Of a stretch of DNA of 39,487 bases, positions 19,486 through 29,695 are shown one piece after another (the first letter of the stretch is position 1; the number at the start of each line of letters is the position of its first letter). The stretch covers positions 1 to 39,487 of the IMG/VR virus record IMGVR_UViG_3300046001_009642, one strand, 5' to 3'. The translations under genes were made by a program, and so were the position numbers. The notes under the pieces are model-generated. The model was not told the DNA's origin. It worked only from the letters and a program-made list of their open reading frames with translations, and ran no database searches. This DNA is from a virus.

Positions 19486-19558
19486 GTGTCCAAGTTGTCG
19501 CCGGCCGCACACCCGTCAAGGCGCTTCTTCAGAGTAGGATTAGCCCAAGACTCTGGGG

Positions 19559-19620
19559 GATTTTTATATATTTTTTTTTAAATTTTCCCCACATTAGTTT
19601 TCCCATACTACTCTCTCATA
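19559..19620. other. AT-rich tract, candidate duplex-unwinding element
   Basis: An otherwise GC-rich genome shows TTTTTATATATTTTTTTTTA and further A/T runs here, immediately beside the CACCGAAC repeat cluster. An easily melted segment next to spaced repeats is the arrangement of many iteron-type replication origins; it could equally be a strong promoter region. Confidence 0.45.
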
Positions 19621-19680
19621 AAAACAGTAGTTAAAACGCTGATACAGAACAAAAATTTTCGTATAGCTCCGACACCCCAA

Positions 19681-19785
19681 CACCGAACTATCGCCGTACG
19701 TCACCGAACAGGTAGCCCCCCCCGTCACGAAACGCCGGACCCTATTCACCGAACCAGATCACTTAACCACCACGTCACCGAACAG
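19681..19785 (+). repeat. Iteron-like cluster of CACCGAAC repeats
   Basis: CACCGAAC or a close variant starts at 19681, 19702, 19726 (degenerate CACGAAAC), 19747 and 19776, all in one orientation, spaced 21, 24, 21 and 29 bases, close to two or more helical turns. Two copies are extended to the exact 12-mer GTCACCGAACAG (19700-19711, 19774-19785). The regular spacing points to cooperative binding of a protein on one DNA face. Confidence 0.65.
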
Positions 19786-20181
19786 AATTTTTCAGAGGAT
19801 GATGCTAAATTTTAATTCCTACAACCCCATGCACTTACAAAAGTCAGGATACATTTTGTGTTTTTGTGCTCGACCCATACCTCAACACCTGTAAACATGT
19901 TTCTCGTCAGGGTTGGTTGAGCAGTAACAGCAGCGAATCGCACCGCGAAACGCCGCTTCTCCTCAACTCCTCGGACAAGAGTCTAGGGGCAAGCCTCACC
20001 GCGCGCCTTGGCAGGACTCCCCAAAAACAAGCCCACCGCGACGTCAACGCTGGTATCTCCAACCCGCCGGACGCGCCGCCCCCTGAAACCCGATCAGCCC
20101 CCGCGCTGGTCCGTTTCGTAAAGCTCACCCCCGCCGGTTGGCTTCACGAAGCGCACCGCTTCAATCAACAAAAAACACATC

Positions 20182-20421
20182 ATGACCATCATCGACCGAC
20201 TCAAAATCGCCCGCACCGCCGCCTTAGCTCACGAGCAAGCCGCTCATGACCTCCGCGTCGCTGCGTTTGCCTACTATCAAATCGCTGGCCGATCCGACGA
20301 CTACAGCATCTTCGAGGCCGCCCGCTCGTCGCACATCGCGGCCTGTGAAGCCGTCCGCAAACTGGAAAACCTCGCCGAAGAGGCCGACCTCGCCCGCTTC
20401 ATCAGCTCCCTCAACGCCTAA
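20182..20421 (+). CDS. Hypothetical 79-aa helical protein
   Basis: Begins MTIIDRLKIARTAALAHEQA; almost entirely helical, Ala-rich, ending ADLARFISSLNA. The leader is A/C-rich with no SD. First gene of the long plus-strand accessory/replication run. Not recognised. Confidence 0.5.
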   Translation: MTIIDRLKIARTAALAHEQAAHDLRVAAFAYYQIAGRSDDYSIFEAARSSHIAACEAVRKLENLAEEADLARFISSLNA

Positions 20422-20426
20422 CCACC

Positions 20427-20594
20427 ATGGACCACATCGACTTCATCATGGCCGTCGAAGACGGCTCCCTCACTCACGAACAGTTCGCCCAGCACGCTCA
20501 AGCGTTCGTCGACTCTGGCGTCTGGCGCTCGCTGCAAGGCTCGTGGCAACGCACCGTCCACTACTGGGCCGAGCACGGCCTCGTCACCTTATGA
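20427..20594 (+). CDS. Hypothetical 55-aa protein
   Basis: ATG at 20427, TGA at 20592-20594. The product MDHIDFIMAVEDGSLTHEQF continues with QHAQAFVDSGVWRSLQGSWQ and ends HYWAEHGLVTL. It looks like a small helical domain of the type common in phage early genes (EDGxLTxEExxxxxxxLxxSGxxxxLQGSWQR). Its stop overlaps the next ATG (ATGA). No catalytic residues seen. Confidence 0.55.
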   Translation: MDHIDFIMAVEDGSLTHEQFAQHAQAFVDSGVWRSLQGSWQRTVHYWAEHGLVTL

Positions 20595-20683
20595 CCCCCA
20601 AACGACTCGTCGAAACCCTCGCCTGTTGCATCGTCGGGCTCCTCTTCGGGGCCCTGCTCTGGCACATGGCGGCAAATTGGTAA
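20591..20683 (+). CDS. 30-aa membrane peptide
   Basis: ATG at 20591 overlapping the preceding stop, TAA at 20681-20683. The product is MTPKRLVETLACCIVGLLFG plus ALLWHMAANW: basic N-terminus and a single hydrophobic helix. It ends 7 bases before the first of the four repeated hairpins. Role unknown; topology would suit a membrane-regulatory peptide. Confidence 0.45.
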   Translation: MTPKRLVETLACCIVGLLFGALLWHMAANW

Positions 20684-20689
20684 CACATC

Positions 20690-20717
20690 GGGCTCCCCTC
20701 ACGGGTGGCCCTCTTTT
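20690..20717 (+). terminator. Repeated hairpin, copy 1
   Basis: GGGCTCCCCTCACGGGTGGC followed by CCTCTTTT: the arms GGGC-CCC and GGG-GCCC pair with one bulge, then a T-run. First and most diverged of four copies in this block. Resembles an intrinsic terminator or attenuator upstream of the ATPase gene. Confidence 0.6.
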
Positions 20718-20760
20718 GTTCCTGATCAACCACAACAACATAAAACAGACACACACACAC

Positions 20761-21801
20761 ATGACCTCGTCATCCCGCCTCGCCTCACTCCTCAACGCCA
20801 AGCGCCGCGTCCTCCTCGTGGGACCCCCGGGCTGCGCTAAGACCGCCCGCGTCGCCGCTGCCGCCAAGGCCGCCGGCCGCAAGCTCATCACCTTCCGCAC
20901 CTCGCTCGCCGAGCGCGTGGACCTCGGTGGCTGCTACGTGCCCGACGTCGCCGCCGGCCTCACCCGCAGCTTGCCCCTCCAGCTCCTCCACGAGCTGCGA
21001 AACACGAACGCGCCCACGGTGCTCTTCCTCGACGACCTCGGCCAAGCGCCCATGGACGTCCAAGCCGCGTGCATGAGCCTGTTCGACGATGGCGCCATCA
21101 GCGACACGGTCGTCATCTGGGGCGCCACGAACCGCCCGAGCGACAAGGCCGGCGTCTCGGCCCTCTGCGAGCCCCTGCGCTCGCGGTTCCACGTTGCATT
21201 TGCCATTGCAACGCCATCGAGCGAGACCAAGTCGGACGGCCCCACCTTCCTAAGCTCTTGGAAGGACGAGGTTGACGCATGGGCCGAGTGGGCCGGCTCG
21301 CAGGACTTCTGCGCCGAGCTCATCGCATGGCACCGCAGCACGACCGGCCGCACGCTTTACGCTTGGAAGCCCTCGGCCGACCCTGCGCTCCGCATGGCCG
21401 ACTACCGCTCGTGGGAGACGGTCGGCCACCTCTGGGCCGCTGGCTTGCGCGACTTCGACACGGTCAGCGCCGCCATCGGTAAGCCGGCCGCCGCCGAGTT
21501 CCTCGCCTTCGCCGCGCTCGCCGACCAGCTGCCGACCCCGCAGCAGGTCTGGATGGACCCGCACGGCGCGCCGGTGCCGGCCGAGCCCGCCGCCCAGTAC
21601 CTCATCGCGACGATGCTGGGCCGAGCGGTCGAGCCTAAGTACGCCGCCGCGCTGATCACTTACATCGGCCGGCTGCCCCGCGTGATGGCCGCCTACTGCG
21701 CCAAGGATGCCTTCGGCCGGCTGGGCGCCAAGCTCGTGGCCAACAAAGCATGGCAGGAGTGGTGGGTCGCCAACCAGCAGCTGTTCGCCACCTCAGTCTG
21801 A
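20761..21801 (+). CDS. MoxR-type AAA+ ATPase
   Basis: 346 aa from the ATG at 20761; the frame is open further upstream but that part spans the membrane peptide and hairpin. GPPGCAKT (21-28) is Walker A, VLFLDDL (87-93) Walker B with D91/D92 in place of the usual D-E, GATNRP (121-126) sensor 1, and CEPLRSRF holds the arginine finger. The C-terminal 150 residues are helical. MoxR-family ATPases work with VWA proteins as chaperones that mature or remodel partners; a VWA protein is encoded two genes downstream. The leader is CA-repeat-rich with no SD. Confidence 0.82.
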   Translation: MTSSSRLASLLNAKRRVLLVGPPGCAKTARVAAAAKAAGRKLITFRTSLAERVDLGGCYVPDVAAGLTRSLPLQLLHELRNTNAPTVLFLDDLGQAPMDVQAACMSLFDDGAISDTVVIWGATNRPSDKAGVSALCEPLRSRFHVAFAIATPSSETKSDGPTFLSSWKDEVDAWAEWAGSQDFCAELIAWHRSTTGRTLYAWKPSADPALRMADYRSWETVGHLWAAGLRDFDTVSAAIGKPAAAEFLAFAALADQLPTPQQVWMDPHGAPVPAEPAAQYLIATMLGRAVEPKYAAALITYIGRLPRVMAAYCAKDAFGRLGAKLVANKAWQEWWVANQQLFATSV

Positions 21802-21810
21802 GCACTCATC

Positions 21811-21838
21811 GGGCTCCCCCTCACGGGGTGGCCCTTTT
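21811..21838 (+). terminator. Repeated hairpin, copy 2
   Basis: GGGCTCCCCCTCACGGGGTG followed by GCCCTTTT: perfect GGGC/GCCC and CCCC/GGGG arms with a bulged T and a T-run. Lies 9 bases after the ATPase stop. Confidence 0.7.
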
Positions 21839-21872
21839 CAGTCCTCAACAACAACAGAAAACACATATCCAC

Positions 21873-22682
21873 ATGACCATCGCATCATCCCCCACCGCTG
21901 CCCGCCTGTCGGCCAAGGCAGTCATCGCCACCCTCAACGTCGGCGCATGGCGCACTGTCAAACGCCACGCGGCCGAGACCGCCGCCGAGAATGCCCGCCA
22001 CGGCCTACGTGACGAGGCCCGCGTCGACGTCAAAATCTGCGCCCACCCAGCGCTCGAAGCCATCGCCCAGCTGCACAGTGAAGCGCGCGCCGAGCACTAC
22101 CGGCTCAGCCTACCGGCCGCCGACAAGGGTCTGCGCCTGTTGCCGGCCGCTCGCCAGTTCGAGCACGCCGCGATCATGCAGGACTTCGCCACGCGCATCG
22201 CGGCGTTGGTTCAGACCTTCCTCGCCGACTATGACGCCGTCCGCGCCGACGCACCCAAGCGCCTCAACGGCCTTTACATCGCGACGCAATGGCCGGCCCA
22301 CGACATCGTCGCCTCGAAGTTCCGCTTCGAGACCCGCTACCTCCCCGTCCCCGACGTCGGTCAGTGGGCCGAGTGGATGGCCGAGGCCGCCGGCGCCGCG
22401 CAGGACGACCTCCGCGAGCGCCTCGCCGACGCGGTCCTCAAGGTCGCCCAGAAGCTAAAGGACCCCAAGGCGATCTTCCGCGACACGCTCATGAGCAACC
22501 TCGCCGAGCTCCTCGCTCTCGTGCCCGACCTCAACTTGGCCGACGATCCCAGCATCGCCGCACTCGCCAAGCAAGCCGGCGAGCTCGTCGAGCACGACGC
22601 CGCCACCCTGCGCGACGATCCCTTCGCCCGCGCCGACATCGCCCAGAAAGCCAACAACCTCTGCTCTCTCTTCAACCTATGA
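21873..22682 (+). CDS. DUF3150-like phage protein
   Basis: 269 aa from the ATG at 21873. The segment EHYRLSLPAADKGLRLLPAA with downstream FLADYDAVRADAPKRLNGLY and FRFETRYLPVPDVG matches my memory of the DUF3150 style (HYxxTLPWxDxGxRLLPA). The protein is largely helical with no catalytic motif. Its place between a MoxR ATPase and a VWA protein agrees with how such proteins are arranged in other phages. It may be an adaptor or substrate of the ATPase. The A/C-rich leader has no SD. Its stop overlaps the VWA start. Confidence 0.6.
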   Translation: MTIASSPTAARLSAKAVIATLNVGAWRTVKRHAAETAAENARHGLRDEARVDVKICAHPALEAIAQLHSEARAEHYRLSLPAADKGLRLLPAARQFEHAAIMQDFATRIAALVQTFLADYDAVRADAPKRLNGLYIATQWPAHDIVASKFRFETRYLPVPDVGQWAEWMAEAAGAAQDDLRERLADAVLKVAQKLKDPKAIFRDTLMSNLAELLALVPDLNLADDPSIAALAKQAGELVEHDAATLRDDPFARADIAQKANNLCSLFNL

Positions 22683-23857
22683 GCTCCACACCCGTCTCAA
22701 TCGACCGCGCCCGCTACTGGGCGCTTACCACGCCGGCCGTAGCCTTCTACGGCTCGCTCGCTTCTAACCTCGCCGACGTGATCGACGACACCGTCGACAC
22801 GGCGTGCACGAATGGCTCGACGATCAAATGGTCGCCCAAGTTCGTCGAGGGCCTCACTGACGCCGAGGTGCGGTTCGTGCTCCTGCACGAGACGCTCCAC
22901 TGCGCTCACGATCACTTCCACCGGCTCCCGCTCAACGAGCAGGGCAACGAGGCCGGCGACTACGCCATCAACGCGGTGCTCGCCAAGGTCGCCGGCATCT
23001 CGATGCCAAAGGGCGGCCTACTCGACGCCAAGTTCGACGGCATGGCCGAGGAGGAAATCCTCGCCGCGCTCGCCAAGCGCCCGACGCCCCCACCGCAACC
23101 CCAGCAGGGCCAACCCCAGCAGGGCGCCGGCCAAGGTCAGCCCCAGCAGGGCAACGGCTCCTGCGGCGGCTTCGAGGCCCCAGCGCCCGCGCCGGCCGCC
23201 AAGGCCGGTCAGACGCCGGCCCCGAGCATGCAGGAAAAGTGGAAGCGCGCCCTCGTGGCCGCCGACATGGCCGCCAAGTCGCTCGGACGCGGCAACGTGC
23301 CGGCCGACCTGCAACGCCTGATCGACTCGCTCACGGCGCCGACCCGCGTCGACTGGCGACAAGAGACGGCCGACTTCGTCCGCTCATCGGTCGCGACGCG
23401 CAACGACTGGACCCGCTCGGCTCGCCGCATGGCGACCGCGCCGGTCATCTACCCGCGCCGCAAGGTCAACGAGACCGGCCGCGTGCTGTTCGTGCGCGAC
23501 ACCTCGGGCAGCATCAACGACCAGCTCGTCGGCGAGTTTACCGCGCTCATCGCGCAATGCACGGCCGACCTCGGCTGCGCGTCAATCGTGATGGACTGCG
23601 ACGCCGAGATTCACAACGAGCACTGGCTCGAAGCCGGCGAGGAGGCGCCGATCAAGGCGCAGGCCGGTGGTGGCACGGACTTCCGTCCCCCGTTCGCCCG
23701 TGCTGCCGAGCTGATCGAGGCGGGCGACTCCATCGCCGGCATCGTCTACCTCACCGACCTCGAAGGGCCCGAGCCCGAGCACAACGAGATTCCGACCCTC
23801 TGGCTCTGCACCACGGCCAACGTCGCCCAGACCGGCCGCACGGTGGCGATCCACTGA
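22679..23857 (+). CDS. VWA-like protein with N-terminal HExxH-type domain
   Basis: 392 aa. The ATG at 22679 overlaps the preceding stop (ATGA). The N-terminal part has LLHETLHCAHDHFHR (68-82), an H-E-x-x-H zinc metallopeptidase-like motif (HETLH, 70-74). A Pro/Gln/Gly-rich linker (135-165) follows, then a VWA domain with a complete MIDAS: DTSGS (274-278), GGTDF (T333) and LTD (D360). This matches DUF2201-type putative metallopeptidase plus VWA-like proteins. It likely works with the ATPase two genes upstream as a cleaving or remodelling machine. Whether the peptidase is active is unknown; the other zinc ligands are not obvious. Confidence 0.8.
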   Translation: MSSTPVSIDRARYWALTTPAVAFYGSLASNLADVIDDTVDTACTNGSTIKWSPKFVEGLTDAEVRFVLLHETLHCAHDHFHRLPLNEQGNEAGDYAINAVLAKVAGISMPKGGLLDAKFDGMAEEEILAALAKRPTPPPQPQQGQPQQGAGQGQPQQGNGSCGGFEAPAPAPAAKAGQTPAPSMQEKWKRALVAADMAAKSLGRGNVPADLQRLIDSLTAPTRVDWRQETADFVRSSVATRNDWTRSARRMATAPVIYPRRKVNETGRVLFVRDTSGSINDQLVGEFTALIAQCTADLGCASIVMDCDAEIHNEHWLEAGEEAPIKAQAGGGTDFRPPFARAAELIEAGDSIAGIVYLTDLEGPEPEHNEIPTLWLCTTANVAQTGRTVAIH

Positions 23858-23866
23858 GCGTTTATC

Positions 23867-23892
23867 GGGCTCCCCCTCACGGGGTGGCCCTC
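23867..23892 (+). terminator. Repeated hairpin, copy 3
   Basis: GGGCTCCCCCTCACGGGGTG then GCCCTC: identical hairpin core to copy 2, ending CTCTTAAACTCTT just before the first Gly-rich gene. The flank GAGCGTTTATC is shared with copy 4, so hairpin, leader and gene start were duplicated as a unit. Confidence 0.65.
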
Positions 23893-23902
23893 TTAAACTC
23901 TT

Positions 23903-24268
23903 ATGACAACCTTACAACTCGACGACTTCGGCGAAGGCAACCCCTTCGACCGCTACAGTGACGGCCCCATCGGCTACGGCATAGACTCCTGCTTAGGCTA
24001 TGGCATCGGCTATCGCTACGGCTGGAGCGACGGTGACGGCAAAGGCACCGGCTACGACGACCAGCACGGCCACGGGTGCGGCTACGGCCTCAGCCACGAT
24101 TTCGAGGGCGACGGCTGCGGCACCGGCCTTGGCGTCGGCTATGGCGTGCGCTATGGTGACGGCAACGCCACCGGCGAAGGCTACGGCGACGCCGACCGCT
24201 ACGAATACGGCGCCAACATCCTCACCACCCATGACGCCCTTGAGGCGCTCGCGACAATTTCCCGATAG
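23903..24268 (+). CDS. Gly/Asp/Tyr-rich repeat protein, copy 1
   Basis: 121 aa, the longest and most divergent of seven paralogues. The N-terminus is MTTLQLDDFGEGNPFDR. The body is an alternating G-x pattern dominated by GYG, GDG, GTG and GVG. It ends with the shared tag ANILTTHDALEALATISR, slightly altered after DALEAL. No signal peptide or membrane span. The body is probably disordered or forms an extended glycine-rich fold; the tag is a likely amphipathic helix. It follows the VWA gene and hairpin copy 3. Function not known. Confidence 0.7.
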   Translation: MTTLQLDDFGEGNPFDRYSDGPIGYGIDSCLGYGIGYRYGWSDGDGKGTGYDDQHGHGCGYGLSHDFEGDGCGTGLGVGYGVRYGDGNATGEGYGDADRYEYGANILTTHDALEALATISR

Positions 24269-24303
24269 GTAAACAACAACAACATCAGAAAACAGATACA
24301 CAC

Positions 24304-24573
24304 ATGACCACTAAACAAAATTCAGTCACTGGTTGGAATATCCTCGTCGTCGACAACGGCTTCGTCTTCGTTGGCGACGTCGTCACCCAGAACGGCATGC
24401 TCCTCGTGCAGCACGCCAAGCAACTCCGCAAGTGGGGCACCACGGCCGGCCTCGGTGAGATCACCGGCGGCCCCACGAAGCAGACCGCCGCCGACCCCGT
24501 CGGCGTGTTGCTCATCCCCTACGCCCGCCTCGTGTTCGCTCTCCCAGCGTCCGAGAAAGGTTGGAAGTTCTGA
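24304..24573 (+). CDS. Conserved small phage protein (WGTT-GLG type)
   Basis: 89 aa. WNILVVDNGFVFVGDV and LRKWGTTAGLGEITGGPTKQ match a small beta-rich phage protein I recall as recurring (iR.WGTT.GLG.l..GPT..T..DP.G.v..P), function unknown. I have the impression that such proteins occur near Gly-rich repeat proteins elsewhere, which would agree with its place between Gly-rich copies 1 and 2 here. The leader CAACAACATCAGAAAACAGA followed by TACACAC resembles those of the ATPase and DUF3150 genes and has no SD. Confidence 0.6.
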   Translation: MTTKQNSVTGWNILVVDNGFVFVGDVVTQNGMLLVQHAKQLRKWGTTAGLGEITGGPTKQTAADPVGVLLIPYARLVFALPASEKGWKF

Positions 24574-24582
24574 GCGTTCATC

Positions 24583-24610
24583 GGGCTCCCCCGCGAGGGG
24601 TGGCCCTCTT
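24583..24610 (+). terminator. Repeated hairpin, copy 4
   Basis: GGGCTCCCCCGCGAGGGGTG then GCCCTCTT. The loop differs from copies 2 and 3 (CGCGA for CTCAC) while both arms are kept, a compensated pattern showing that the stem is what is conserved. It directly precedes Gly-rich copy 2. Confidence 0.65.
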
Positions 24611-24618
24611 AAACTCTT

Positions 24619-24903
24619 ATGACAACCTTACAACTCAACGGCAATGGCGATGGCTCCCTCGGCGGCTTCGGCTTCGGCGGCGACGGCTATGGCGACGGAG
24701 GCGGCGGCTACGGCGACGGCTCCGACTACCGCATCGGCGACGGCGACGGCGCCTACGGCTACGGCTCCGGCGCCGGCTACGGCTACGGCTTCGGCTTCGG
24801 CGGCGACGGCTATGGCGACGGCGACCCCGATAGCTACGGCGACGACGACGGCGTCAACATCCTCACCACCCATGACGCCCTTGAGGCGCTGACCTATTTA
24901 TGA
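24619..24903 (+). CDS. Gly/Asp/Tyr-rich repeat protein, copy 2
   Basis: 94 aa. N-terminus MTTLQLNGNGDGSLGG, body of G-x pairs with an internally repeated block GFGFGGDGYGDG (two copies), and C-terminal tag VNILTTHDALEALTYL. The DNA body is close to a (GGCNNC)n repeat. The stop TGA overlaps the ATG of copy 3 (ATGA). Preceded by hairpin copy 4 and the same TTAAACTCTT leader as copy 1. Role unknown. Confidence 0.7.
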   Translation: MTTLQLNGNGDGSLGGFGFGGDGYGDGGGGYGDGSDYRIGDGDGAYGYGSGAGYGYGFGFGGDGYGDGDPDSYGDDDGVNILTTHDALEALTYL

Positions 24904-25184
24904 CAACCTTACAACTCAACGGCAATGGCGATGGCTCCCTCGGCGGCGACGGCGCCTACGGCTACGGCTACGGCGACGGAGGCGGCGGCTGGGGCAACGG
25001 CCACGGCGACGGGCTTGCCTACGGCAACGGCTCCGGCGACGGCGACGGCTCCGGCGGCGACGGCTCCGGCGACGGCTATGGCTGTGGCATCGGCGATACC
25101 ATTGGCAATGGTAGCGACGGCGACGAACATGACGCCAACATCCTCACCACCGACGACGCCCTTGAGGCGCTGACCTATTTATGA
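24900..25184 (+). CDS. Gly/Asp/Tyr-rich repeat protein, copy 3
   Basis: 94 aa. It shares its first 16 residues with copy 2, and the DNA over this stretch is nearly identical. Body richer in GDG/GSG/GNG and poorer in Tyr than copy 2, with one Trp and one Cys (GWGNGHG, GYGCGIG). C-terminal tag ANILTTDDALEALTYL. Starts and stops with 4-base overlaps to its neighbours. Confidence 0.7.
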   Translation: MTTLQLNGNGDGSLGGDGAYGYGYGDGGGGWGNGHGDGLAYGNGSGDGDGSGGDGSGDGYGCGIGDTIGNGSDGDEHDANILTTDDALEALTYL

Positions 25185-25426
25185 CAACCTTACAACTCAA
25201 CGGCGGCCGCGACGGCAAAGGCACGGGCGAGGGCTACGGCGACGGCTCCGGCTACGGCTACGGCTACGGCTACGGCTACGGCTACGGCGAGATGCGAGGC
25301 GACGGCTACGGCTACGGCAACGCCACCGGCGACAGCGACGGCGACAGCGACGGCGACGGCGAGGGCTTCGGCGACGCCAACATCCTCACCACCCATGACG
25401 CCCTTGAGGCGCTGACCTATTTATGA
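25181..25426 (+). CDS. Gly/Asp/Tyr-rich repeat protein, copy 4
   Basis: 81 aa, the shortest, about 30 per cent Gly. N-terminus MTTLQLNGGRDGKGTGEGYG, then a run of six GY pairs, the module GEMRGDGYGYG that recurs in copy 6, an Asp/Ser run (GDSDGDSDGDGEG) and the tag ANILTTHDALEALTYL. 4-base overlaps on both sides. Confidence 0.7.
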   Translation: MTTLQLNGGRDGKGTGEGYGDGSGYGYGYGYGYGYGEMRGDGYGYGNATGDSDGDSDGDGEGFGDANILTTHDALEALTYL

Positions 25427-25695
25427 CCACACTGGAATCCAACGACGACGATGGCTACAACTACGGCGACGGCCATGGCTTTGGCTTCGGCGACGGCGAC
25501 GGCGACGGCTTCGGCGACGACTACGGCGACGGCGACGACTACGGCGACGGCAGCGGCGACGGCTACGGCTACGGCTTTTTCGGCGGGGGTTCGGGCGATG
25601 GTAAACGCTTTGGCTATGGCACAAGCACGAGCTACCGTGACGGCCTGTGCATCCTCACCACCGACGACGCCCTTGAGGCGCTGACCTATTTATGA
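25423..25695 (+). CDS. Gly/Asp/Tyr-rich repeat protein, copy 5
   Basis: 90 aa. N-terminus differs from the others (MTTLESNDDDGYNYGDGHGF), then acidic GDGDGDGFGDDYGDGDDYGD, GYGYGFFGGGSGDGKRFGYG and the tag CILTTDDALEALTYL. The most acidic copy. 4-base overlaps on both sides. Confidence 0.7.
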   Translation: MTTLESNDDDGYNYGDGHGFGFGDGDGDGFGDDYGDGDDYGDGSGDGYGYGFFGGGSGDGKRFGYGTSTSYRDGLCILTTDDALEALTYL

Positions 25696-25964
25696 CAACC
25701 TTACAACGCAACGGCAATGGCTGCGGCTACGGCTACAGCGACGGCTTCGGCTTCGGCTACGGCACCGGCTGGGAAGGCGGCGACGGCTCCGGCTACGGCA
25801 CCGGCAACGGCTACGGCGAGATGCGAGGCGAAGGCTATGGCACCGGCTATCGCCACTACGCGATTGGCGACACTGGCGACGGCGGCCTACTATTACGGGG
25901 CCCAGAAGCCACTCACGACATCCTCACCACCGACGACGCCCTTGAGGCGCTGACCTACTTATGA
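25692..25964 (+). CDS. Gly/Asp/Tyr-rich repeat protein, copy 6
   Basis: 90 aa. N-terminus MTTLQRNGNGCGYGYSDGFG; contains GEMRGEGYGTG, the same module as in copy 4. The last third before the tag leaves the Gly pattern (RHYAIGDTGDGGLLLRGPEA). Tag DILTTDDALEALTYL. 4-base overlaps on both sides. Confidence 0.7.
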   Translation: MTTLQRNGNGCGYGYSDGFGFGYGTGWEGGDGSGYGTGNGYGEMRGEGYGTGYRHYAIGDTGDGGLLLRGPEATHDILTTDDALEALTYL

Positions 25965-26215
25965 CGACCATACTTTACGACCGCACCACCTACGGCACCG
26001 GCAGGGGCGCCGGCACGGGCTACGGCGACGCCCAAGGTGGCGGCGGTTACGACCACGACAACGACGGCCTCAACTACGGCGGCCACATTTACGCCGATGG
26101 CCTCGGCTACGGTTACCGCGACGGCGACGGCCAAAACGTCGACATCCGCTTCACGAGAAGCGGTCTTTTCATCCTCACCACCGACGACGCCCTTGAGGCA
26201 CTCACTTTTTTATGA
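25961..26215 (+). CDS. Gly/Asp/Tyr-rich repeat protein, copy 7
   Basis: 84 aa, last of the array. N-terminus diverged (MTTILYDRTTYGTGRGAGTG), then GYGDAQGGGGYDHDNDGLNY, GLGYGYRDGDGQ and the tag LFILTTDDALEALTFL. Its stop overlaps the ATG of the 196-aa gene by 4 bases, so the array is translationally joined to that gene. Confidence 0.7.
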   Translation: MTTILYDRTTYGTGRGAGTGYGDAQGGGGYDHDNDGLNYGGHIYADGLGYGYRDGDGQNVDIRFTRSGLFILTTDDALEALTFL

Positions 26216-26802
26216 CCACACAACACGATTACGATTCAGAAATGTATACTGTCCTCGCCGGCCTCGGTTGGTCGGACATCCCCTCCGACTACCCAGCACG
26301 CTACGGCGAGCTTAAAAATCGAAACGACCCAGCGTTTGTTTTTTGCCCGATCAAAACCAAACACGACCTCTTCGGCGTGCCCAAGAAACGCTTCAAGCTG
26401 GGCGTTGACCACCGCGACGCCCAAGGAGTTGACGAGATTCCGTCGCGGAACATCGACATGGACGCACCCAACTGGAAGCGTTCGCTCTACTCGTGGCACG
26501 CTACGGCCACGTTCAAACTGGCCGAGATTCGAGCGAAGTACGCCGAGCGCGACGCGGAAAAACAGCGCATCGAAAAGCGGCAGAAAGAGTCGTGGGAGTT
26601 GGCGTGCGCGGGGTCTGCCGCTATGAAAAAACTAGCACTGCCCTACTCACACGACGACGACGACAACGTCGACTCCATCTTGGTGAATTGGTCGCATCGA
26701 GTCTATTCGAGCAAAGCACTCGACGGCATTACCCTGACGCAGAGAGCCGACAAGGTTCGCCGGCTCTGCGAGTTCTTAGTGGCCGAAGGATGGGACAAAT
26801 AA
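26212..26802 (+). CDS. Hypothetical 196-aa protein coupled to the Gly-rich array
   Basis: Begins MTTQHDYDSEMYTVLAGLGW. N-terminal part globular with FVFCPIKTKHDLFGVPKKRF. Middle is a charged helix (KLAEIRAKYAERDAEKQRIE, continuing KRQKES), probably coiled coil, then YSHDDDDNVDSI and a helical C-terminus (RADKVRRLCEFLVAEGWDK). The initial MTT and the ATGA overlap match the array genes, so the start region may derive from the same duplication. No family recognised. Confidence 0.55.
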   Translation: MTTQHDYDSEMYTVLAGLGWSDIPSDYPARYGELKNRNDPAFVFCPIKTKHDLFGVPKKRFKLGVDHRDAQGVDEIPSRNIDMDAPNWKRSLYSWHATATFKLAEIRAKYAERDAEKQRIEKRQKESWELACAGSAAMKKLALPYSHDDDDNVDSILVNWSHRVYSSKALDGITLTQRADKVRRLCEFLVAEGWDK

Positions 26803-26803
26803 C

Positions 26804-27022
26804 ATGGAGCTACGCATTCATCACCGAACCAACCCGCTCAGCCGGCAATCGGCGTATCGGGTAAAGTCCTACAGCAAGTTTTACCGAGGCGATAACTTGC
26901 TCGACGGCTTGACCCATGTCGGTCACGCCGCCATGCTGGACACGGTCAACGTAGTGCTAAACAAACTACGCGAAGTCGAGCCTCGCCGGTCAACGTACAC
27001 CGTACTCATCGAAACAAATTAG
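26804..27022 (+). CDS. Hypothetical 72-aa basic protein
   Basis: Begins MELRIHHRTNPLSRQSAYRV, one base after the previous stop. Basic, with a helical middle (HAAMLDTVNVVLNKLREVEP) and strand-like end (STYTVLIETN). Last gene before a strong terminator, so it closes the accessory operon. Not recognised. Confidence 0.5.
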   Translation: MELRIHHRTNPLSRQSAYRVKSYSKFYRGDNLLDGLTHVGHAAMLDTVNVVLNKLREVEPRRSTYTVLIETN

Positions 27023-27033
27023 GGGGCGAACAG

Positions 27034-27067
27034 CCCGCACCGTGCTCACGCATGGTGCGGGTTTTTT
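27034..27067 (+). terminator. Intrinsic terminator
   Basis: CCCGCACCGTG (27034-27044), a 6-base loop, CATGGTGCGGG (27051-27061), then TTTTTT and more Ts: an 11-bp stem with one G-T wobble and a U-tract. It separates the accessory block from the replication block. Confidence 0.85.
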
Positions 27068-27119
27068 ATTTTTCCCGCTTGACCATGCAACAGGAGACCG
27101 TTCAACACAGCAACCCGCC

Positions 27120-27257
27120 ATGCCACTATCGCCATCACAGATCGCCGCTCTCCTCGGCAAATTGAACAAGGGGAAAAAGAAGAAGATCAGCAAAGCCGAA
27201 AGCAAACGCCGCGCAGCCCAGCTGGCTATCGCTCGCAAATCGAGGTGGTCAAAATGA
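27120..27257 (+). CDS. 45-aa Lys-rich protein
   Basis: ATG at 27120. The product MPLSPSQIAALLGKLNKGKK continues with a Lys/Ala/Arg-rich helix (SKAESKRRAAQLAIARKSRW). Strongly basic, probably nucleic-acid binding. Its stop overlaps the primase start (ATGA), so it is expressed with the replication genes. Upstream in-frame extension passes through the terminator and is rejected. Confidence 0.5.
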   Translation: MPLSPSQIAALLGKLNKGKKKKISKAESKRRAAQLAIARKSRWSK

Positions 27258-29695
27258 GCACCCCAACCTACTTCGGGGGTCAACCCTCCAACATGGGGCG
27301 CGTCACGGCGCTACCCGCCACAACCTTTGCCGAACTGGTCGAGCAGTTCATCGCTGCACCCATCGCGCTCGGGATCACTCAGGCCGAGATGCAAGCTCTG
27401 CCCGAGGCCGAGCAGAACGAAAAGAAGAAGACCGCTTACCTCGTGCCGGCCGTGTTCAAGACGAGCCCGAGCCCGCGCCAAACCGGCTCGGCCACACACT
27501 GCAACCTGTTATTCATCGACGTCGACGATCCCAAAGAGGCGAGCCGCATCATCAACGCCGGAGTCAACATTCTCCTCGGCGACATGTCGGCCGTCGTCTG
27601 GCACACCGCACGCTCGGTGCCCGACCGCCCGCGTCTCCGCATTATGGTGCCGGCGAGCGGCGTGCCCGTCGCTCAATACGCCATGGCCGTGACCGGTCTG
27701 GCCGGCTTGCTCGGGATGAACGACCTGACGCACGAGTCCAAGGTCGCGGTGCAGCCCATGTATTTACCCGTCGAGTATACGGACATGGTCGAGGGCCCGA
27801 TAGTCTACAGTAAAACCGATGGCACGGTGTTCGACCACTCGCAGCTGGTCGAGCTCGAAGGGCTCAAGCGCACGACCGACGAGGTGGTCGACGTCGACAT
27901 CGGCGACATCGAGTACCTGCGCGCACCGCTGGAAGACGTCACCGTCGAAGAGGTAGCCGACGCTCTCAGCAAGGTCGACCCCGCTTGCTCGCACCAAGAG
28001 TGGGTCGAGGTTGGCATGGGTTTGAAGCATCAGTTCGGCGCGGCCGGCTTCGACCTCTGGGATCAATGGTCGGCCCAGTCCAAGGACAAGTACCCCCAGC
28101 AGTCCGAGATGAAGAAAAAGTGGGAGTCGTTCCGAGCGAACCCCAAGGACCGCGTTCCCACCACGATTCGCAGCGTCATCAAGGTCGCAGTCGAGGCGGG
28201 CTGGAACAACCGACCCATCGCCGGCCGCATGTTCGAGAGCGCCCGCGAGTGGATTCGCGACTCGGCACGCACACCGGAAGACCTGTTGGTGCATGGAGCC
28301 AAACGCATCGCCAAGCTGGGCGCCGTAGTGGGCCCCCTAGAGCAGAAGGTCCTAGTCGCCGACCTGTTCGGCGCGACCAAGTCGCGAGGGCTACGCGGCC
28401 CCACCGTGGTGGACTTAGCTAAGGAGATTCGCCGGCTATCCTCAGCGGCGACGCGGGCCAACAGTTCGCAGCCCCCATGGGCGACCGGCATCGTGTTCCT
28501 CACTGCGCCCAATCTGTTTTTCCGCTACCTCGACAACCGCAAGATGCGCGGCGAGGTGGTCGACCTCATCTACAAGAGCCCCAACCCCGAGATCAGCGCA
28601 CGCGACTACCTCATTCACGACATCGGCATCCCCGTCGTCGAGAACCTGCGTTACAACCCCGCCGAAACTAAGCGGGTGTTCACGCACGAGGGCGTGCCCT
28701 ACATCAACACCTATCGCCCGACCTACGCACGCCCCGACAAGAGCATGGCCATTGAGGCCGGCGCGCTCTACCTGCGGCACGCGCAGAACCTATTGGGCGA
28801 TCCGTATTGGATCACCTTCACCGATTGGGTCGCGTACCAAGTCCAGCACTCGGGGAAAAAGATTCGCTGGGCGCCGGCTATCCAGTCGGGCGTCGGCGGC
28901 GGCAAGGGGTTCCTCGCGTACATCCTCACGCTCATCCTCGGCCAATCTAACGTGCAACGACTGGCGGCCGAGCACATCCTCGAAGGCAATCACAACGGCT
29001 GGGCGGCGGGATCGCAGCTCACCGTCGTCGACGAGGTTCGCATCATCGGGCCGAACCGGCACCGGATCATGGACAAGTTAAAGCCCGTCATCTCCGACGA
29101 CATGGTTTCGGTTCGGCAGATTTACGAGCCGGTCATGACCTGTCCCAACGTGACGAACTATCTTTTCTTCACGAACTATCACGACTCTCTCGCGGTTCAC
29201 TCGGACGACCGGCGCTACTTCTACGTCGAGTCACCGCTGCAAACCAAGAAGCAGATTCTCAACCTCGGGCCGACCTACTTCGACGACCTCTATCGGGACG
29301 CGACACGTTTGGCCGGCGGGTTGCGTGCGTTCTTCGAGGCGTGGCCTATCTCGAAAAACTTCGAGCCCGAAGGCCGTGCCCCCATGACGCCATTCCTACG
29401 CACGCTCGCCATGCAGACCGCGACCCCGCTCGCCCGCGCTGTGCTCGACACGATCCACGATCAGCCGCACCCGCTCGTGCGGAAGGACCTTGTATCGCTT
29501 ACAGCACTACGCGCAATGATGCCGACCAACAACCTGCCACCGTTCACCGACCAAGGGCTCAGCTCTATCCTGCGCGAAGAAGGATTCGTTTCGGTCGGCC
29601 GCCACCAGATCGACGGCGCCACGCACGCCCTGTGGACGATGGACCCCGACCTCGACACCGCCGCACGGGCGCAGCAAAGAATGGATTTGCTGTAA
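27254..29695 (+). CDS. Primase-helicase (AEP-like, PriCT and DUF5906-type ATPase)
   Basis: 813 aa. The N-terminal region has LLFIDVDDP (85-93), WHTARS and RLRIMVP (127-133), resembling an archaeo-eukaryotic-primase-like domain. Residues near 225-320 (VADALSKVDPACSHQEWVEV, then GMGLKHQFGAAGF and KKKWESFR) fit a PriCT-2-type linker. The C-terminal part is an SF3/D5-style helicase: Walker A GVGGGKGF (546-553, with GKG in place of GK[ST]), Walker B VVDEV (D593/E594), followed by NYLFFTNYHDSLAVHSDDRR, as in DUF5906 proteins. It would prime and unwind DNA at the phage fork. The ATG at 27254 is chosen over an in-frame GTG-type start 9 bases upstream because of the ATGA overlap. Confidence 0.82.
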   Translation: MSTPTYFGGQPSNMGRVTALPATTFAELVEQFIAAPIALGITQAEMQALPEAEQNEKKKTAYLVPAVFKTSPSPRQTGSATHCNLLFIDVDDPKEASRIINAGVNILLGDMSAVVWHTARSVPDRPRLRIMVPASGVPVAQYAMAVTGLAGLLGMNDLTHESKVAVQPMYLPVEYTDMVEGPIVYSKTDGTVFDHSQLVELEGLKRTTDEVVDVDIGDIEYLRAPLEDVTVEEVADALSKVDPACSHQEWVEVGMGLKHQFGAAGFDLWDQWSAQSKDKYPQQSEMKKKWESFRANPKDRVPTTIRSVIKVAVEAGWNNRPIAGRMFESAREWIRDSARTPEDLLVHGAKRIAKLGAVVGPLEQKVLVADLFGATKSRGLRGPTVVDLAKEIRRLSSAATRANSSQPPWATGIVFLTAPNLFFRYLDNRKMRGEVVDLIYKSPNPEISARDYLIHDIGIPVVENLRYNPAETKRVFTHEGVPYINTYRPTYARPDKSMAIEAGALYLRHAQNLLGDPYWITFTDWVAYQVQHSGKKIRWAPAIQSGVGGGKGFLAYILTLILGQSNVQRLAAEHILEGNHNGWAAGSQLTVVDEVRIIGPNRHRIMDKLKPVISDDMVSVRQIYEPVMTCPNVTNYLFFTNYHDSLAVHSDDRRYFYVESPLQTKKQILNLGPTYFDDLYRDATRLAGGLRAFFEAWPISKNFEPEGRAPMTPFLRTLAMQTATPLARAVLDTIHDQPHPLVRKDLVSLTALRAMMPTNNLPPFTDQGLSSILREEGFVSVGRHQIDGATHALWTMDPDLDTAARAQQRMDLL

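Follow-up and report, generated by a model that had tools for sequence, protein, structure and literature searches.

Disordered tails rich in Gly are found on some eukaryotic Sm proteins; Gly-rich disordered linkers occur in SSB, and Tyr/Gly-rich low-complexity domains occur in hnRNP-type proteins. In phages, the RNAs of the VIPR system alternate GGY with NN, have a constant tail and lie beside a small RNA-binding protein; the repeats are tandem YNNGG units of 5 nt, and Vipr is a RAMP/RRM protein (PMC13142463). Here we analyze a virus record of 39,487 bases (IMG/VR IMGVR_UViG_3300046001_009642, taken at its full length and hereafter termed the window), which contains seven genes for proteins with alternating Gly and variable residues (Gly-X, GX) and, between the first and second of these, an ORF of 89 aa (p89). 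We propose, with a probability of about 0.45, that the locus encodes a two-protein phage module composed of a Sm-like DUF6948 barrel and a disordered GX partner, the GX half being amplified in this virus.

The GX array in the window

All genes of the region lie on the + strand in the order MoxR-like ATPase, 269-aa protein, DUF2201/VWA protein, GX copy 1, p89, GX copies 2 to 7, 196-aa protein and PriCT-2/DUF5906 primase (Table 1). A preliminary description, made from the letters alone, had reported the seven GX genes with their lengths and coordinates and a chain of 4-base overlaps through copies 2 to 7. The ORF list bears out both; each overlap is ATGA, and the same overlap joins copy 7 to the gene at 26212. 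That description treated the array as seven genes alone, omitting the 89-aa gene that splits copy 1 from the remaining six. The common ends that it proposed, close to MTTLQ(L) and ILTT(H/D)DALEALTYL, hold in their core: each of the seven copies begins with M-T-T and has I-L-T-T-[HD]-D-A-L-E-A-L near its end without variation, whereas the longer forms are broken by copy 5 (start MTTLES), copy 7 (start MTTILY, end ...TFL) and copy 1 (end ...DALEALATISR). Between the ends the bodies alternate Gly with X, which is chiefly Asp and Tyr. Structure prediction of body and tag, suggested earlier as a follow-up, returned a disordered body for copy 2 in AlphaFold (pLDDT <50) and a lone helix that corresponds to the tag (residues 84-93), the latter at low confidence. 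The DNA pattern of the tag was found five times on the + strand of the record versus none for the reversed control. GX proteins have a median net charge of -9 (-7 to -17 for the window copies), and DUF6948 proteins are near neutral (+1).

An independent metagenome contig (L007, 9,710 bp) matches the window over 6,179 bp with two differences and reproduces the array as far as copy 5. An assembly artifact, the risk that had been attached to the array at the outset, is rejected by this second assembly. Both differences are non-synonymous and are located 5 bases apart in copy 1, at 24026 and 24031. L007 stops inside copy 5, and copies 6 and 7 therefore rest on a single assembly.

Four further relatives (L009 to L012) were retrieved with a VWA-guided search. 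L011 and L012 keep the window layout, with an 84-aa homologue of p89 and two to three GX genes with related ends; a total of three more distantly related contigs carry two to three GX copies at the same place with the related tag (P)LITDDPLVALQHVSP or LTCDDALVALQHISP. L009 and L010 retain the ATPase, the 269-aa-type middle gene, the VWA gene (64-65% identity), a 194-aa gene and the primase gene. Neither a GX tract nor an 89-aa homologue was found in the whole records of these two, so that GX and DUF6948 are missing together; the call was made with our own p89-family profile because a direct scan of the relatives with PF22253 had found nothing. A search with the exact degenerate tag found only the near-identical contig, and a looser search that included Gly repeats found only close relatives and chance matches. 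The tag is confined to this small clade, most relatives have other ends, and a role as a widespread sorting signal is rejected. What survives of the docking or sorting element first suggested is that the GX N-terminus tracks the subtype of the neighboring DUF6948 protein, as described below.

GX genes recur beside DUF6948-like genes

GX ORFs retrieved with the DNA pattern (GGNNAY)n are widespread in phages; among the matches listed, many have other fixed ends and some are tandem. The array, initially presented as lacking a characterized counterpart, is not unique in this respect. Among the same listed matches, a p89-profile match lies directly beside the GX ORF in approximately 40 otherwise unrelated loci. 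The reverse search used the narrower alignment A3 as the query, the broader A2 being too diverse for a collection scan, and identified 373 IMG/VR stretches encoding DUF6948-like relatives. We read 86 of these loci, 80 of them viral and 6 on bacterial contigs. A GX ORF is located directly behind the DUF6948-like gene in 72 of the 86 and in 60 of the 68 with at least 400 nt downstream; no GX ORF was found at the unrelated loci among L013-L031. The pair is also present in cultured phages, namely the Rheinheimera Barba phages (gp017/gp018; 115 records matched, 14 read) and Rhodobacter phage RcapNL (gp46/gp47). Removal of redundancy gave a set of 119 DUF6948-GX pairs.

The six bacterial contigs that carry the pair are L232-L237, including one from Nakamurella aerolata (L236, NZ_JABEND010000009.1). 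In other records GX tracts are fused to other small domains (L040:10363-10935, L077:1821-2510, L063:80-742, L035:9716-10264, L069:1659-2282 and L042:4418-4894), examples being DUF7666 in L069 and domains that Pfam does not name. Pfam TrAA12 matches of GX proteins were set aside as apparent chance matches of low-complexity sequence, and PHROGs, NCBIfam and PADLOC held no useful family for the proteins scanned.

The GX frame is translated

Whatever it encodes, a GGC-NNC tract has no stop codon in any of the three forward frames, and an open body is thus in itself no sign of coding. The flanking sequence is informative. A start codon that leads into the GX frame lies near the DUF6948 stop in 72 of 72 pairs (ATG in 58), versus 8 and 1 ATGs into the other two frames. 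Codons vary synonymously in MTTL, in the tag, and in TLDG, the motif with which other GX proteins start. The universal GX-frame start and the synonymous variation in the ends establish GX as a translated protein. Translation is usually coupled, either with the DUF6948 gene or with the preceding GX copy, and an additional RNA role of the repeats may exist.

p89 has a predicted Sm-like fold

No Pfam match was found for p89 itself. Its homologue in L101 scores above the DUF6948 (PF22253) cut-off (35.4 versus 27 bits, E 1.2e-8), and the viral proteins that match p89 in fold belong to DUF6948 (E 2e-7, TM 0.83). Judged by these profile and model comparisons, p89 is probably a divergent member of DUF6948. 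The AlphaFold model of p89, calculated with 39 homologues, has a pLDDT of 93.8 and shows the five-stranded bent barrel of Sm proteins, as a prediction with moderate scores. Its top PDB matches are almost all Sm/LSm (Foldseek E ~2e-3), and the best VIA match to Sm/LSm chains has a Z of 8.7 and an rmsd of 2.1 over 65 residues. Sm proteins were absent, up to E 10, from the results of a profile search of solved structures, and for this reason we label the fold Sm-like rather than assign it to the Sm family. The best-conserved DUF6948 positions, R-x-W-G-T...G-L-G-E-L, are located in the loop after strand 3. The DUF6948 barrel is probably oligomeric, arranged as a ring, and would bind RNA or single-stranded DNA. 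Plasmids searched with a DUF6948-like query gave no match.

GX bodies change rapidly between fixed ends

The X residues are mostly Tyr and Asp, plus Ser or Asn. Ser-type arrays number 45 and Asn-type arrays 37, and no array has four or more of both residues. An array mostly uses one codon per amino acid; its Gly codons have a near-uniform third base and its Ser codon is near-uniform too, and both features vary from array to array and set the arrays apart from the remainder of the genome. This uniformity fits growth and shuffling by hexamers, and gains of whole hexamers were observed among the Barba isolates. Barba31A and Barba18A differ at 5 of 2239 upstream bases, and their GX genes are fully reshuffled (252 versus 210 nt). 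In GX copy 2, L011 and L012 are separated by gaps and by codon differences, of which 22 are non-synonymous and 14 synonymous; the corresponding counts for the primase are 25 and 130. The picture of constant ends around a quickly changing low-complexity body, drawn in the preliminary description, is supported. A diversity-generating retroelement was rejected as the source of the variation, given that no PF00078 reverse transcriptase match was found in the record, which may be incomplete.

The GX sequence also follows the type of its neighbor. RPVG-type GX starts occur in 13 of 13 pairs with a W-E-S DUF6948 type versus 3 of 90 with a W-G-T type (Fisher 5e-14; 119 non-redundant pairs), and the Ser/Asn type follows the nearest DUF6948 relative in 76% of cases versus 50% when shuffled. 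Co-adaptation fits both the matching of ends with subtypes and that of Ser/Asn types, but shared ancestry fits them as well.

Rapid change permits two other explanations. First, GX may be a decoy, anti-defense or diversifying protein: selection would favor change in the body to counter a host or rival factor, and DUF6948 would serve GX as a chaperone or delivery partner. The mostly non-synonymous change in the Barba31A/Barba18A and L011/L012 comparisons, the location of both L007 differences in copy 1, the seven-fold amplification and the absence of a known-family match all point this way. However, hexamer slippage alone would produce rapid change, PADLOC, run on the neighbors of GX, gave nothing but one marginal match of the ATPase, and the narrow residue alphabet is conserved across unrelated phages, suggesting that composition rather than exact sequence matters. 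We consider this explanation unlikely, albeit the strongest of the competitors. Second, and a little less probable, the body may be a near-neutral, microsatellite-like passenger or simple spacer, in which case what matters would be limited to the ends and the DUF6948 gene. The codon homogeneity inside arrays, with its differences between arrays, and the whole-hexamer gains between near-identical isolates are consistent with a passenger; but the same amino-acid type is reached via different codon solutions beside DUF6948 subtypes of ~25% identity, the frame is kept in every one of the 72 pairs, and the gene has been multiplied in this phage.

Genomic neighborhood

Table 1. Features of the GX locus in the window (coordinates in bases).
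Feature	Position	Strand	Remark	Basis
GX copy 1	23903..24268	+	121 aa; most diverged copy; C-terminal end ILTTHDALEALATISR	ORF list, copy alignment
GX copy 2	24619..24903	+	94 aa	ORF list, copy alignment, structure prediction
GX copy 3	24900..25184	+	94 aa	ORF list, copy alignment
GX copy 4	25181..25426	+	81 aa	ORF list, copy alignment
GX copy 5	25423..25695	+	90 aa	ORF list, copy alignment
GX copy 6	25692..25964	+	90 aa	ORF list, copy alignment
GX copy 7	25961..26215	+	84 aa; body least regular of the seven	ORF list, copy alignment
C-terminal tag, example from copy 2 (ILTTHDALEALTYL)	24859..24900	+	sole predicted helix of the protein; clade-specific	
p89, DUF6948-like protein with predicted Sm/LSm barrel	24304..24573	+	89 aa; recurrent partner of GX proteins	
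MoxR-like AAA+ ATPase (context)	20764..21801	+		Pfam
269-aa protein between ATPase and VWA genes (context)	21873..22682	+	no Pfam match	
DUF2201 metallopeptidase-like/VWA protein (context)	22676..23857	+		Pfam DUF2201_N and DUF2201
196-aa downstream protein	26212..26802	+	kept in relatives without GX and DUF6948	
Leader hairpin GGGCTCCCCCTCACGGGGTGGCCC	23867..23890	+	just 5' of copy 1	
Leader hairpin, variant GGGCTCCCCCGCGAGGGGTGGCCC	24583..24606	+	just 5' of copy 2	

The preliminary description had named the ATPase/VWA pair as the binding partner to be tried first, and the GX proteins could in principle be substrates or adaptors of this AAA+/VWA system. The genes share strand and neighborhood in the window and its relatives, and MoxR and VWA genes also lie at a few unrelated GX loci. 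Nevertheless, L009 and L010 keep the ATPase, middle and VWA genes in the absence of GX and DUF6948, and MoxR/VWA genes are within reach in just 2 of the 119 pair loci. A general MoxR/VWA link is rejected on this count, membership of the array in the ATPase/VWA system is very unlikely, and the adjacent Sm-like DUF6948 protein becomes the first partner candidate. The 196-aa protein is likewise placed outside the module on account of its retention in relatives that lack the pair.

The 269-aa protein, which has no Pfam or PHROG match, recurs with MoxR/VWA in other phages (L139, L115, L127 and L097). PHROG 1314 (window 22676-23854) and several RefSeq phage records label DUF2201/VWA proteins as 'HNH endonuclease', and Pfam shows DUF2201_N and DUF2201; the label is probably a propagated misannotation. 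PADLOC returned no match for p89 and its homologues or for the VWA, 269-aa and 196-aa proteins, and only a marginal IetA match for the ATPase.

Several genes of the operon without an obvious Shine-Dalgarno sequence are preceded by a GC-rich hairpin of the form GGGCTCCCC-loop-GGGG-GGCCC and, after it, a run rich in pyrimidines. In addition to the two sites in Table 1, the hairpin is found at 20636-20654, about 20692 and 21811-21834; three copies are near-identical versus 0 expected. A different hairpin precedes GX in L011 and L012 and carries compensatory changes (CCACG/CGTGG and CCATG/CATGG). An Rfam scan of 19500-27300 gave no match.

A proposed two-protein module

Returning to the module, the DUF6948 gene would supply a small protein with a Sm/LSm-like barrel, and the GX gene a short, acidic and intrinsically disordered Gly-X protein with Tyr, Asp and Asn or Ser at X. 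As units of 6 nt are gained, lost and shuffled, the length and composition of the body would shift quickly and the amino-acid type would be kept. The constrained GX ends probably anchor GX on the Sm-like protein or on the assembly that this protein forms. The multivalent disordered GX proteins, together with the Sm-like protein, may form a nucleoprotein assembly, which would act early in infection beside replication and recombination genes. The GX gene of this phage appears to have been multiplied seven-fold and to have gained a helical C-terminal tag; dosage and mixed assemblies are our guesses as to why seven copies are present.

The computed support covers association, co-absence, the translated frame, the predicted folds and the rapid turnover of the body; protein contact, nucleic-acid binding, assembly, timing and benefit are steps that we infer. 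Condensate and adhesive roles of GX, raised in the preliminary description, are hypothetical. Several further points weigh against the proposed module. The homologues used as seeds for the reverse search had themselves been found beside GX, which may bias the 72 of 86 loci by ascertainment. The gene context speaks for the module, with ERF, RecT, YqaJ, SSB, DnaB or PolA near at least 40 of the 119 pairs, but this number was counted without a matched control. The Foldseek E value to Sm is just ~2e-3, and a Z of ~8.7 is barely above the level of common arrangements for that tool. The conserved loop after strand 3 is not the usual RNA-holding site of Sm proteins, and the strong acidity of GX (median -9) makes it an unlikely nucleic-acid binder itself. 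The matching of ends with DUF6948 subtypes could result from shared ancestry of the locus. Finally, by the terms tried, the papers on Barba phages yielded no mention of the genes of the pair and no expression data.

A more far-reaching version of the module, to which we give little weight, is a diversifying phage system in which a Sm-like ring and a rapidly rewritten modular Gly-X partner, either protein or protein plus repeat RNA, would set the specificity or material state of a nucleoprotein assembly that acts against host or rival factors or hides from them. For the module as first proposed, direct tests are possible because the pair occurs in growable phages (Rheinheimera Barba and Rhodobacter RcapNL).

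Comparison with known systems

We found no described system built like the DUF6948-GX pair, although its parts are catalogued or resemble known folds and an earlier description is possible. The open literature, to which the search was confined, contained no paper mentioning DUF6948, and searches for GX motifs returned no phage work. The pairing would join a domain of unknown function and odd Gly-X ORFs into one module across very different phages.

The likeness to DUF6948 is carried by the L101 homologue that passes the PF22253 cut-off and by viral fold matches that bear the family name; the difference is that p89 lacks a Pfam match. The likeness to Sm/LSm proteins (eukaryotic Sm, archaeal SmAP and Sm-like proteins, e.g. 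PDB 3by7) lies in the predicted barrel topology of p89/DUF6948, as reflected in the top Foldseek and VIA matches. In contrast, p89 has no detectable sequence similarity to solved Sm structures, its conserved loop follows strand 3, and the Gly-rich part is a separate gene whose product is acidic and rich in Tyr and Asp. If the module is real, phages hold a split version of the eukaryotic ribonucleoprotein design of a fold plus a low-complexity tail, in which the disordered part evolves within one population. SSB linkers and hnRNP-type domains are similar in that a Gly-rich disordered chain with aromatic residues is tied to a nucleic-acid-binding partner fold; an F/YGG motif is the subject of PMC9067507. 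GX differs in being a phage protein of its own, in its strict alternation of Gly with X and in its net negative charge, and the likeness is one of composition in low-complexity sequence.

VIPR was considered because the array resembles GGY/NN phage RNAs beside a small RNA-binding protein (PMC13142463): both are phage-borne, with alternating GG/NN-like tandem units, a constant 3' end, a hypervariable body (open here in every forward frame) and a small partner protein whose predicted fold suggests RNA binding. The spacing of GGY is 6 nt in 118 cases and 5 nt in 1 (mostly 6, 3, 9 or 12 nt, nearly all multiples of 3), rather than the 5 nt of YNNGG units, and the repeat tract is coding. Some arrays are wholly GGA or mostly GGG instead of GGY, with X mostly Tyr, Asp and Ser or Asn and with C rare at the variable base; no PF03787 (RAMP) match was found in the record, although Vipr is divergent, and p89 is Sm-like rather than RRM. 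The reading of the repeats as guide RNA, with a constant 3' tail and incidental ORFs, is therefore rejected on period, the GX-frame start in all 72 pairs with other frames far rarer, synonymous change in the start and tag, and the GGA/GGG arrays, and is the least probable of the explanations considered. A coding Gly-X repeat can nonetheless mimic a GG/NN guide RNA, which is relevant to scans for VIPR-like systems.

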